Assembly: GCF_002214365.1 (NCBI RefSeq)
Contig: NZ_CP014854.1
Span: 62,001 to 126,000 of the forward strand
DNA from: Thermococcus celer Vu 13 = JCM 8558
GTDB taxonomy: Archaea > Methanobacteriota_B > Thermococci > Thermococcales > Thermococcaceae
Length of the DNA: 64,000 nt
Direction: 5' to 3'
The translations under genes and the position numbers were made by a program. Of the stretch, positions 17,796 to 21,667 are shown one piece after another (the first letter of the stretch is position 1; each line of letters starts with the position of its first letter). Below the pieces are notes generated by a model. It was not told the origin of the DNA. It was given only the letters and a program-made list of their open reading frames with translations, and did not search any database.

Positions 17796-18141
17796 GAAGA
17801 GTTCATTAACTTAAGTGAGGCACATACTGTCAGGATAACTGGGGTATCACCTCCTGAAGCTATTCAGCAACACCCTCGGAGGTTAGGACGGAAAACTTAA
17901 ATCAAGGAGGAGCTTCTCAGGAGATTGGGGACTAAATAGGAAGGAATCTTGATGATATTGGCCTCATGTATTACGATCTTAGTTCCTCCCTTACTCATGA
18001 GACACTTTGGCGGCAAATCCTAAAGGGGAAACCATCAAAAGAATTAGTGAAAACTGAAGTCCTCTGCATCGTTGGAGCATTTGCCTTTTATTTTCCGCCG
18101 CTCTTTTCATACTTGGTTTCTTCGGTTTATAAGCAAAGGTA
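17796..18141 (+). pseudogene. decayed gene of unknown family left of the tungsten oxidoreductase cassette
   Basis: The gap between the MFS gene and the ferredoxin gene holds coding-like pieces in shifting frames. One reads EEFINLSEAHTVRITGVSPP and on to a stop at about 17900; a second reads IKEELLRRLGTK near 17905-17940; a third, with an ATG at about 17968, reads MYYDLSSSLTHETLWRQILK and continues through a hydrophobic FAFYFPPLFSYL segment to TAA at 18141. Frames switch at stop codons, as expected of a degraded gene for a small membrane-anchored protein. The last piece, about 58 residues, could alternatively be a live short gene. I do not recognise the family. Confidence 0.4.
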
Positions 18142-18142
18142 A

Positions 18143-18193
18143 GTCTAAACGGTTTAATTTGTCTTTAAAGGCAGGTCTAAACGGTTTAATTTG
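18143..18193 (+). promoter_or_regulatory. tandem operator-like repeats before the tungsten oxidoreductase operon
   Basis: The 19-base sequence GTCTAAACGGTTTAATTTG occurs twice, at 18143-18161 and 18175-18193, exactly 32 bases (three helical turns) apart. Each copy contains the imperfect palindrome TTAAAC-like core TAAACGGTTTA. The second copy ends a few bases before a likely TATA box (AATATATAC, 18200-18208). A dimeric regulator binding both copies on one DNA face and acting from just upstream of the promoter is the simplest reading. Confidence 0.6.
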
Positions 18194-18240
18194 CATAAGA
18201 AATATATACAACTTCATCCTAAAATTGTTAGGTGTTATAA

Positions 18241-18765
18241 ATGGGCGGGGATATGGAAAGAGTGGGGATTTTGGTGACTCCCGATAAGTGCAGCGGATGC
18301 AGATTGTGTGAGATAGCATGCTCCCTGGAGCACGAGGGTATTATATGGCCCGAGGCGTCAAGGATAAGGATTTTTGAGCTTCTTCCGGGGATAAATGTTC
18401 CCCACACATGCGTCCAGTGCCCTGACTATCCGTGTGTGGCTGCGTGTCCAACAAATGCGCTGAGCGTCGATGAAAAAACGGGAGCCGTTTTGGTGGATGA
18501 GGATAAATGCATAGAATGTGGAGCGTGTGTGGCTGCGTGCCCCGGAGACGTCCCGAGGATTCCCGAAGGGAAGGGGAGCGTGGTAATATGTGATCTCTGT
18601 GGGGGAGAGCCAAAGTGCGTTGAGGCATGTCATGAAGCGGCTCACGATGCTCTGAAGATTGTTAGAGGAAACTACAGACCAATCTTCAGGACTTTTGCAA
18701 AGGATCCGGTGGCGAAAAGCTTTGAAATCGCAAGAAAAGTTTATGGCGAAGAGTTTCTGAGGTGA
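18241..18765 (+). CDS. polyferredoxin subunit of a tungsten aldehyde oxidoreductase
   Basis: This 174-residue protein carries sixteen cysteines in four clusters able to bind four [4Fe-4S] centres: CSGCRLCEIAC, CVQCPDYPCVAAC, CIECGACVAAC and CDLCGGEPKCVEAC. It belongs to the DmsB/HycB-like electron-transfer family, and resembles the small subunit (PF1479) encoded next to WOR5 in Pyrococcus furiosus. It would carry electrons between the tungsten subunit and ferredoxin. It precedes the oxidoreductase gene directly, with the downstream ATG only five bases after its stop. The ATG at 18241 follows TTAGGTGTTATAA; an ATG at 18253 is possible. Base composition is more AT-rich than the surrounding core genes. 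Confidence 0.88.
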   Translation: MGGDMERVGILVTPDKCSGCRLCEIACSLEHEGIIWPEASRIRIFELLPGINVPHTCVQCPDYPCVAACPTNALSVDEKTGAVLVDEDKCIECGACVAACPGDVPRIPEGKGSVVICDLCGGEPKCVEACHEAAHDALKIVRGNYRPIFRTFAKDPVAKSFEIARKVYGEEFLR

Positions 18766-18770
18766 GGGAA

Positions 18771-20645
18771 ATGTATGGTTACACCGGAAAACTTCTCGAT
18801 GTGAACCTGACGGGGGAAGAAATTAATGAAATTGAACTCAGCGAAGACGTTCTTAAAAAATTCTACGGCGGTAGGGGGCTTGGCACATACCTGTTATGGA
18901 AAGAGCTTGGAGAGCAATGGGAAAAAATTGATCCCTTAGGTGAGAAAAATCTCCTGCTCGTTCTTACGGGACCCCTAACAGGTTACTATCCGGGAATGAA
19001 AACCGCCGTGCTTTCCAAATCTCCGGAGAGCAATGGGGTGGTGGGGAGCGTTTTGAGCAGTGAGGTTGGGCTTGAACTCAAAGCCTCCGGGTACGATGGG
19101 ATCATTATACGGGGAAAAGCCAAAACACCTGTTTATCTCTTAATCCACAACGATAACGTAGAGATACGAGATGCGAGTAAATACTGGGGAATGGGTGGTA
19201 CCGAGCTCTACAAAACGCTCCTCAGGGATGTGTACGAGGAAATAAAGAAAAAAGAAAAACTGAAGGGAGTTCCAAAAGAGCCGGCGATGATGTACATAGG
19301 CAGGGGAGGAGAGAATAAAGTTCGTTTCGCCGCAATAATGACAAAACTCATGCACGCGGCCGGTTACGGTGGTTATGGAGCTGTAATGGGAAGCAAAAAC
19401 CTCAAGGCGATTCTGGTTAAGGGGAGTAAACCCCTTCCGGAGGTCTATGATAAAAACAAAATGAAAGCTCTCCTAAGAGAGTTTTGGAAGAAATCCTTCT
19501 CCGCGGTTACGTTCAGGGAGTGGGGAACCGCCGCTGGAGGATACAGTGTTGGACACGACCGATCAAGTGAGCCTATCAGGAACTGGCAGGAAGAGTACCA
19601 CAACGACGAGAGGATGAGTGTCGTCAACTTTGAAAACAAAGTATGGATAAAAAAGTACTGGGCGGACTATGGCTGTCCGGTCAACTGCATGAAGATCTCT
19701 TACCTGAGGAACGGGCTCCACAAAGGCGCGATTACAGATGGCCCGGACTACGAACTGATGGCATACATGGGAACGAACCTCGGCATCTTCGAGCCGGAAA
19801 AGATAGTTTACCTCTCCCATCTTGTCGATGAGCTTGGACTTGATGGCATAAACGCAGGAAATGTTTTGGGGTTTGCCGCCGAGCTCTACCAGAGGGGCAT
19901 TTTGACGAAAGAGGATCTCGGCTTTGAATTGAGGTGGGGGGACGAGGAGGCCTTTGCAAAACTAATTGAGATGATCACAAACAAAGAAGAGATCGGAGAA
20001 ATTCTGGCCGAAGGAACTTACAGAGCAGCGTTAAGGATCTCAGAGATGAAGGGAGTCGACGCAACGAAGTATGCAGTTCACGTCAAGGGCATCGGCGTCG
20101 GTGCCCATGGAATACGGAGCGAGCTTGACTACACAAGGGACGTGAGCTACGCCGTCTCCGTTCAAGGTGGGGACCACACATCGACCGCTGCCCTTCCGGC
20201 AAAGGGTTACGAGGGAGAAATGACAAGCGCATTCTACGACTCCGCAGTGATATGTATGTTCGTCACACAGCCAGGCTTTGAGAATATTTTGGAATTCGGA
20301 AACGCAGTGACTGGTTTCAAAATAACTCCTGAGCAGTGGCTAAACGAAATCGGACCTAGAATAATACACCTCCAGAGAATCCTCCTCCTTCTTGGTGGGC
20401 CTGATGTTTACTGGGATCCAAGAAAAGACGATGATAATCCTCCAAGGTTCTATGAACCCTTACCAAGCGGCCCGGTCAGGGGAAAAGCCCCAAGTAAAGA
20501 AGAGATACATACAAAGGTCAGGCAATACTACGAGGAGATTGGATACGATGAGAAGGGCATTCCACGGGAAGAAATCCTGGAAAAACTGGGTTTGGGTGAA
20601 GCAAAGAGGGATGTGAAGAGAATCAGGAGGCGGCTGGGAGTTTAA
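18771..20645 (+). CDS. tungsten-containing aldehyde:ferredoxin oxidoreductase family protein (WOR-type)
   Basis: This 624-residue protein is a member of the AOR family, which oxidises aldehydes to carboxylic acids with a tungsten bispterin cofactor and ferredoxin. The N-terminal half has the pterin-binding GGRGLG and GPLTG motifs, and C495 (ICMF) fits the last cluster cysteine of the family. In the C-x2-C-x3-C cluster motif the first Cys is replaced by Asp299 (D299-x2-C302-x3-C306). An Asp at this place has been reported for some WOR paralogues, as I recall. The adjacent polyferredoxin suggests the heterodimeric WOR5 type; the substrate is not readable. The ATG at 18771 follows GAGGTGAGGGAA; the upstream GTG lies inside that site. 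Confidence 0.88.
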   Translation: MYGYTGKLLDVNLTGEEINEIELSEDVLKKFYGGRGLGTYLLWKELGEQWEKIDPLGEKNLLLVLTGPLTGYYPGMKTAVLSKSPESNGVVGSVLSSEVGLELKASGYDGIIIRGKAKTPVYLLIHNDNVEIRDASKYWGMGGTELYKTLLRDVYEEIKKKEKLKGVPKEPAMMYIGRGGENKVRFAAIMTKLMHAAGYGGYGAVMGSKNLKAILVKGSKPLPEVYDKNKMKALLREFWKKSFSAVTFREWGTAAGGYSVGHDRSSEPIRNWQEEYHNDERMSVVNFENKVWIKKYWADYGCPVNCMKISYLRNGLHKGAITDGPDYELMAYMGTNLGIFEPEKIVYLSHLVDELGLDGINAGNVLGFAAELYQRGILTKEDLGFELRWGDEEAFAKLIEMITNKEEIGEILAEGTYRAALRISEMKGVDATKYAVHVKGIGVGAHGIRSELDYTRDVSYAVSVQGGDHTSTAALPAKGYEGEMTSAFYDSAVICMFVTQPGFENILEFGNAVTGFKITPEQWLNEIGPRIIHLQRILLLLGGPDVYWDPRKDDDNPPRFYEPLPSGPVRGKAPSKEEIHTKVRQYYEEIGYDEKGIPREEILEKLGLGEAKRDVKRIRRRLGV

Positions 20646-20714
20646 CTTTTGCTTTAACTTTTGGTTCAGGAAAGCCTTATATTCTCTTTTTAAAATCTTT
20701 CACCGGTGAGTGAG

Positions 20715-20999
20715 TTGGAAGGATGGAAGGGAAAACTAAAGCAGGGGATCCTTGAAAATGAAGAGATTTTAATAGAACTGACCCTGAGAGGAGAATGCGG
20801 TGAATGGCTCCCCAGCCTGGCATTGTATGACAAGGAGAAGGATCTATGGTATTACTTTGACAATGAGATCAGGACAGGCTTTACCGAGGATAAAGCTTTT
20901 AGAAATGCGGTTGAGTTCTTCGAGAAGCTCATCATAGGACTTGAGGTTCCTATTCTGAAGGTCTCACCCCTTAAGGAAGAGTCTCTTGGAGGGGGTTAA
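20715..20999 (+). CDS. small hypothetical protein in the tungsten oxidoreductase operon
   Basis: This roughly 94-residue protein is acidic, without cysteines except one, and without membrane segments. It has a WLPSLALYDKEKDLWYYF core and ends in -SLGGG. I do not recognise the family. It sits between the oxidoreductase gene and the MoaD-like gene, three bases before the latter, so it is probably part of the operon and may help assemble or regulate the enzyme. A TTG at 20715 preceded by GGTGAGTGAG is the likely start; a GTG at 20706 lacks a ribosome site. Confidence 0.6.
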   Translation: MEGWKGKLKQGILENEEILIELTLRGECGEWLPSLALYDKEKDLWYYFDNEIRTGFTEDKAFRNAVEFFEKLIIGLEVPILKVSPLKEESLGGG

Positions 21000-21002
21000 T
21001 GA

Positions 21003-21224
21003 ATGAAGATCAGGGTTAGGCTCTACGGTGATCTGGCCCTAAAGTATTCCCCTGATTTTGAATTTGAAGTTCCTGAGGGAAGTAAAGTCTCAGATGTCCT
21101 CAGGATTCTTGGGATAAGTGATTATGGGAACCATATAATCGTTAATGAGAAAAAAGTCGGTAGGGAGCATCCCCTAAATGAAGGAGACGTTTTAAAGATC
21201 CTGCCCGTTGTCTACGGGGGTTGA
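21003..21224 (+). CDS. MoaD/ThiS family sulfur-carrier protein
   Basis: This 73-residue beta-grasp protein ends in Gly-Gly (VVYGG), the tail that is adenylated and thiocarboxylated in MoaD-type sulfur carriers. MoaD supplies sulfur for the dithiolene of molybdopterin or tungstopterin, so its place next to a tungsten oxidoreductase fits a cassette-specific pterin synthase subunit. An archaeal ubiquitin-like modifier (SAMP) role is possible too. The start has a strong GGAGGGGG site that overlaps the end of the preceding gene. Confidence 0.85.
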   Translation: MKIRVRLYGDLALKYSPDFEFEVPEGSKVSDVLRILGISDYGNHIIVNEKKVGREHPLNEGDVLKILPVVYGG

Positions 21225-21330
21225 CCAACGTACTCACTAAACGTGGGCGTTAGGTAGAGATCAATCTTTCCACTCTCTATAGCATGTATTATGTCTCTTT
21301 CAAGTGCCCTGAGTTCTTCTTCACTCACTA
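21222..21330 (-). pseudogene. 3' fragment of an unknown gene at the cassette boundary
   Basis: On the minus strand a short AT-rich frame reads VVSEEELRALERDIIHAIES and continues GKIDLYLTPTFSEYVGQPP to a stop that overlaps the end of the MoaD-like gene. It looks like the C-terminus of a real protein that lost its upstream part where the GC-rich radical SAM fragment begins. Chance coding-like sequence cannot be excluded. Confidence 0.3.
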
Positions 21331-21594
21331 CATCACGTTCGTCCCGGACGGCGAGCCGACGCTCGACATCAACCTCTCCCGGGAGGTCGAACTGCTGAGG
21401 AGCCTCGGCATCCCCCTGGCGATACTCACGAACTCGTCCCTCATCTGGCGCGAGGACGTGAGGGAACTCCTTAGAAAGGCAACGCCGGCTGGGAGGTCGT
21501 TGAAAAGCTTCTGAAGGAGGGTAAGCTGATAGAACTCGAGTATCGCGGTCAGCGCTTCTACATGCGCGCCCTTCCGAGCAGGAGAAAGTCTTAA
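21325..21594 (+). pseudogene. remnant of a radical SAM protein gene
   Basis: The frame beginning near 21325 reads HYITFVPDGEPTLDINLSRE and on through LTNSSLIWREDVRELL, a stretch typical of the middle of the archaeal radical SAM family COG0731. The preceding N-terminal part with the CxxxCxxC cluster is absent. Near 21485 the frame jumps to NAGWEVVEKLLKEGKLIELE and ends RRKS, the family C-terminus, so an internal block is lost as well. GC-rich composition matches the genome core, unlike the AT-rich cassette that abuts it. The cassette probably inserted into or beside this gene. Confidence 0.65.
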
Positions 21595-21667
21595 TTATAT
21601 CTCCCCGACCCCAATCATGCGGGCGGTGTCCCTGACGGTGTTCGCGAGGAGGTAGTGGGGTGATGGT

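Follow-up and report, generated by a model that had tools for sequence, protein, structure and literature searches.

Two identical 19-base sequences lie in tandem before a tungsten oxidoreductase operon of Thermococcus celer Vu 13, which raises the questions of whether they are operators, which regulator they might serve and why there are two of them. We addressed these questions by analysis of the window (the whole 64,000-nucleotide stretch of DNA containing the repeat) and by comparison with other Thermococcaceae genomes. The original prediction had described two perfect copies three helical turns apart, placed just upstream of a TATA box and recognised by a regulator that might sense aldehyde, tungsten or a pterin.

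A tandem repeat abutting the WOR5 core promoter

The search recovered two perfect copies of GTCTAAACGGTTTAATTTG with a period of 32 bp, at 18143-18161 and 18175-18193 of the forward strand, as had been described. With up to three mismatches allowed, the chance expectation for this sequence in the 64-kb window was 0.02, none of 100 shuffles of the window contained two matches, and a search of the whole 1.87-Mb genome found no third match. Reading of the sequence showed that the likeness extends beyond the 19-mer (AAAGG(T/C)A(A/G)GTCTAAACGGTTTAATTTG), with 24-25 of 27 positions equal. The position just upstream of the TATA box also held true, as the proximal copy runs directly into CATAA. The C that follows this copy both closes the predicted operator and opens the CATAA at the BRE position, whereas the base after the distal copy is T. 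The features of the locus are collected in Table 1. A scan for promoters and terminators returned nothing, the method being a bacterial one and ill suited to archaea.

Table 1. Features at the WOR5/ASOR locus (positions in the window)
Feature	Position	Strand	Basis or remark
Predicted proximal (core) operator, GTCTAAAC-GGTTTA-ATTTGC	18175..18194	+	Orthologous to the element in other WOR5 promoters
Predicted distal (auxiliary) operator copy	18143..18161	+	32 bp upstream of the proximal copy, same helix face
Tandem duplication, two nearly identical 27-bp copies (AAAGG..TTTG), period 32	18135..18193	+	Sequence; alignment with G034
Core promoter: CATAA at BRE position (18194-18198), TATATA (18203-18208)	18194..18208	+	Sequence; TATA-anchored alignment
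WOR5/ASOR small subunit, polyferredoxin	18241..18765	+	
WOR5/ASOR large tungstopterin subunit	18762..20645	+	Protein search
Small protein without assigned function, kept beside WOR5 in many relatives (cluster 14)	20706..20999	+	
MoaD/ThiS-like sulfur carrier, conserved last gene of the WOR5 cluster (cluster 2)	21003..21224	+	

The assignment of the downstream genes to a tungsten oxidoreductase was borne out by the large subunit, an orthologue of Pyrococcus furiosus WOR5 (6x1o, 1238 bits). This enzyme is now named ASOR, aliphatic sulfonate oxidoreductase, and is induced by cold shock (PMC13328260, PMC12096430). In relatives, a divergent DMT-type transporter gene lies directly upstream of WOR5; it has been lost in the present genome, and the operon seems to have moved. 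Upstream of the operon, 18113-18135 resembles a TATA relic of that divergent gene, and 21212-21614, downstream, resembles a C-terminal relic of a neighbour gene (cluster 6). A radical-SAM-like fragment lies at 21284-21514; relatives showed no such fragment upstream of their NAD-kinase-like gene. One Pyrococcus-like genome (L070, G005) has a WOR5 gene interrupted by ten in-frame stops, a pseudogene in decay. A tandem TTTAACTTTTGC at 20640-20663, 3′ of the large subunit gene, scored 10.4 bits with the operator matrix described below (20640-20659), and was rejected as a further operator since relatives do not keep this site.

Conservation of the element in WOR5 promoters

WOR5 was found in 48 of 94 Thermococcaceae genomes. 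A search for the motif before these homologous operons, as suggested with the original prediction, located a matching element in fixed register at the WOR5 promoter of 24 of the 94 genomes, belonging to five genera. The absence from all such operons that would have told against the prediction was not observed. When 23 such promoters, representing five of the six genera, were aligned on the TATA box, a sharply bounded common block of 23 bp emerged, followed on its 3′ side by four unconserved bases and TATATA. Among eleven representatives, positions T-25, A-23, C-21, G-20, T-18, T-13, C-9, T-7, A-6 and A-5 were invariant. A strict model of the block gave a single strong site per genome in the 24 genomes, always at WOR5 and with 38-48 bits (12 of these 24 sequences form its training set), and the next-best sites reached at most 20 bits. 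In the present genome, itself a training member, the proximal site scored 43.5 bits (E 4.9e-11), and the distal copy was the second-best match at 20.1 bits. Only the present genome has two copies of the element; elsewhere, WOR5 promoters of this type contain a single one.

Most Thermococcus WOR5 promoters carry a different upstream sequence, TCTnnRCGTTTT, at two TATA spacings that differ by 11 bp, one helical turn (L046, L051, L052, L059 and other Thermococcus). These promoters showed no fit to the operator defined below, and a matrix built from the other tungsten genes found nothing in them.

Related sites before other tungsten genes

The strict scan had led us to regard the element as specific to a single gene. 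This view proved to come from too strict a model and was dropped after weaker matches were seen at the moeA promoter of two genomes and at the promoter of FOR (formaldehyde oxidoreductase) of a third, all in the same TATA register. A second model, built from WOR5, moeA1 and FOR sites, was therefore run on 40 genomes. At E < 0.01, 60 of its 61 matches fell on tungsten genes according to our own classification, most of these families being represented in the training set. Below this level, a group of matches lay before moaB, a family outside the training set, in about 13 checked genomes, and others were found at moaA (one genome) and, weaker still, at wtpA. Weak matches within coding sequence or at unrelated genes (the thermosome gene of G002, pilin-like and FUN14-like genes) were set aside. 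The thermosome promoter of this Palaeococcus-like genome (L196, G002:C1:95387-95418) carries TTAAACGCATCTATTTGCGTAA before its TATA box, a sequence close to the operator, which may reflect chance or a shared regulator.

The wtpA and moaA genes were then fetched by protein search in 22 genomes and their promoters were read. In the moaA promoters of all genera, GTTAAAC-like and TTTACC-like half-sites precede the BRE; in many genomes a further conserved CTACTTGTAGTTTTCGAT precedes the operator by about 10-30 bp (L436-L446). Comparison of all sites suggested that the 19-mer is part of a broader operator, GTTAAAC-n6-(G/A)TTTRC, a dyad of roughly 20 bp abutting the BRE. The 19-mer proposed earlier is hence not the actual unit, which includes the next base, C, and stands alone in the other WOR5 promoters of this type. 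The dyad centre deduced from WOR5 alone had been 3 bp off and was set right by the sites of the other tungsten genes. Sites of this form precede wtpA, moaA, moaB-moeA2, moeA1 and FOR, with 7-8 bp between the operator and the TATA box; measured from the operator end, the gap is 8 bp for moaA, moaB and moeA1, and it is 7 bp for FOR and WOR5. The FOR gene in this set corresponds by orthology to P. furiosus FOR, whose structure has been solved (1b25). Because moeA2 follows moaB, it lacks a site of its own. At AOR promoters no operator was found save for one weak case.

Scoring with a position matrix placed several moeA1 and FOR promoters above all 466 control upstream regions. Matrices were next built with one family left out at a time, and the promoters to be scored were chosen solely through protein searches, without the genomes from which the idea had come. 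The results showed that 44 of 64 promoters reached at least the 99th percentile of 166 promoter-like controls (FOR 8/8, moaB 8/10, moeA1 9/12, moaA 12/21 and wtpA 7/13); in genus g4, the promoters of moeA1 and wtpA scored poorly. With the matrix that excludes WOR5, most of the 23 WOR5 promoters had their best site at the WOR5 element, and in 17 of the 23 the score was at or above 8.7 bits, the 99th percentile of the controls. In the present genome the proximal and distal copies are the two best positions of the promoter with this matrix (7.9 and 6.3 bits), and 18 positions of the 64-kb window score at least 7.9 bits; because the local site is weak by itself, its membership of the regulon leans on the orthologous promoters. 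Orthologous promoters share ancestry, so that these counts overstate independence; the agreement across unrelated gene families is free of this weakness.

Spacing and origin of the second copy

The three-turn spacing noted by the original prediction recurs at FOR promoters, where 18 of 18 genomes have a second operator at a distance of 31-32 bp from the best-scoring one, compared with 23 of 466 controls. The FOR promoters of g2, g4, g5 and g6 have a third operator, with sites near −65, −97 and −129 from the start codon, and the FOR promoter of the present genome is also paired (17.0 and 7.8 bits). A second operator at the same distance was present in 11 of 11 promoters of another AOR-family gene (MEAKGGYWG...), which resemble FOR promoters so closely that they are probably homologous and not an independent case. 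At wtpA promoters, overlapping pairs at 18-19 bp appear to replace the 32-bp arrays. The wtpA promoter of the present genome (L421, G000:C1 ~1670290-1670400, minus strand) shows an apparent overlapping pair, GTAAAC-n6-ATTTAAC and CTTAAAC-n6-GTTTCC, about 19 bp apart. In view of the FOR arrays, the spacing first noticed here is a conserved feature elsewhere in the proposed regulon, on which the WOR5 promoter of the present genome has converged.

The nearest relative, G034, whose large subunit is 87% identical, has no distal copy. Its promoter aligns with ours on both sides of the repeat pair and lacks 22 bp present here. Since all other WOR5 promoters of this type are single-copy, the second copy is a recent local duplication. 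The simplest history would be that 32 bp were duplicated in tandem between two TTTG words and that 10 bp were then lost, and the perfect identity of the 19-mers would therefore reflect their age and not constraint.

This history bears on the strongest alternative, namely that the proximal site is functional and the distal copy a neutral product of slippage, which is compatible with the explanation that we prefer for the proximal site. The single copy in the nearest relative and in all others, the TTTG words flanking the duplicated segment, as slippage would leave them, and the loss in the distal copy of the C adjoining the BRE all agree with it. However, all 19 bases have been kept although the flanks have diverged, and the spacing is the one that FOR promoters keep across genera. 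We regard a neutral distal copy as possible but rather doubtful.

A candidate tungsten regulon and its regulator

We consider it fairly likely that the two 19-mers are operator copies of a Thermococcaceae tungsten/tungstopterin regulon, recognised by a dimeric regulator with a cooperative distal site. Sequence comparison shows the element itself, its fixed register, its sharing with tungsten genes, the recurrent spacing and the recent origin of the distal copy here; the bound protein, its dimeric state, the cooperativity, the signal and the sign of regulation are what we infer from them. A dimeric helix-turn-helix regulator would bind the proximal copy and contact or block TFB/TBP, and binding would be strengthened cooperatively by another dimer, occupying the distal copy on the same helix face three turns upstream; the FOR promoters would use the same core and auxiliary arrangement. 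Activation is somewhat favoured over repression by the operator position, the layout being like that of Lrp-type activators and TFB-RF1, but a site touching the BRE could equally block TFB.

In P. furiosus, WtpA was seen at low and was absent at high tungstate, which has been read as tungstate feedback (PMC10221389). The proposed regulator is therefore presumed to read tungstate or the tungsten cofactor. Of the signals first suggested, tungsten and a pterin gain support from the relatives of the element before tungsten-uptake and tungstopterin genes, and nothing supports aldehyde. No recurrent regulator gene was found, by eye or by clustering, beside WOR5, wtpA, moaA, moaB, moeA1 or FOR. A search with HTH_1, which a divergent helix-turn-helix could escape, found no ModE-like protein above the cut-off in eight of nine genomes, the present one included; the ninth has one in a 377-aa frame (L344, G086:C1:1014031-1014213), possibly ModE-like.

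A second alternative is that WOR5 has a regulator of its own, responding to cold shock, sulfonate or sulfur state, and that the resemblance to the other tungsten operators arose by convergence of AT-rich sequence before the BRE. It draws on the strict model, which singled out WOR5 in all 24 genomes, on the induction of WOR5 by cold shock in P. furiosus (PMC13328260) and on the low score of the local site with the tungsten-gene matrix. It sits poorly with the recovery of the element by the matrix trained without WOR5 and with the distance from element to TATA, which equals that of FOR, and we judge it unlikely. It is very improbable that the block is simply an extended core promoter, consisting of the BRE and upstream TFB contacts, without any regulator: it does abut the BRE, with a right end CRTAA at the BRE position, but its conservation, invariant positions included, reaches 18 bp upstream of the BRE, its best genome-wide matches lie almost only at tungsten genes and not at promoters at large, and the further FOR copies, 32 and 64 bp upstream, are far from TFB.

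The candidate tungsten regulon would in its full form comprise wtpABC, moaA, moaB-moeA2, moeA1, FOR and WOR5 under one putative tungsten-sensing regulator with three-turn operator arrays, the WOR5 array having just been gained by the 32-bp duplication; for this whole picture we see the chances as evenly balanced. No description of a tungsten regulon in Thermococcales was found in the open-access literature. Thermococcales depend on tungsten, and the feedback on its uptake proposed for P. furiosus has had no regulator assigned to it. The shared operator offers a defined bait for such a regulator, predicts its targets and ties WOR5 to tungsten supply besides cold shock. G034 with one site and the present genome with two form a natural before-and-after pair for cooperativity at three-turn spacing in an archaeal promoter.

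Comparison with known regulatory systems

The original prediction had noted no match to SurR or TGM, and our counts agree. The SurR operator (GTTn3AAC, long form GTTn3AACn5GTT) was found in 0 of the 23 WOR5 promoters, its short form occurring in 1 of 121 among the other promoters tested. Neither the TGM of TrmBL1 (TATCACn5GTGATA) nor the TFB-RF1 operator (TCTGn5CAGA, TCTGAAnTTCAGA) was found in any promoter tested. SurR, of the same order, also uses a GTT/AAC-rich motif upstream of redox-enzyme genes, but the spacing of its half-sites differs (PMC12162507). TFB-RF1 of P. furiosus activates by recruiting TFB through a palindrome at a fixed distance upstream of a weak BRE (PMC5937170); the fixed distance to the BRE is alike here, whereas motif and targets differ.

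In archaeal promoters activated by Lrp-type regulators, a dimer binds immediately upstream of the BRE, and additional sites lie two or three helical turns farther upstream (PMC2995911, PMC10201364). The layout described here, with a core site by the BRE and auxiliary sites three helical turns off, resembles that of Ptr2, LysM, Ss-LrpB and BarR; motif and effector differ, and no Lrp gene is tied to the present sites. Such array geometry was seen at FOR (18/18) and the other tungsten-enzyme gene (11/11) with 31-32 bp, and at the local WOR5 promoter with 32 bp. ModE regulons place metal-oxyanion uptake and cofactor genes under one dyad operator, but no ModE-type HTH_1 protein is common to the genomes studied here (one of nine above the cut-off). 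In Desulfovibrio, a single regulator, TunR/TupR, is described as controlling both the genes for molybdate/tungstate transport and those for tungstoenzymes (Rajeev et al. 2019, as cited in PMC10102598). That system is bacterial and its regulator is known, whereas the archaeal set adds moaA, moaB and moeA1 and works with other promoter machinery. As far as that description goes, the TunR regulon would be the nearest functional counterpart of the regulon proposed here.
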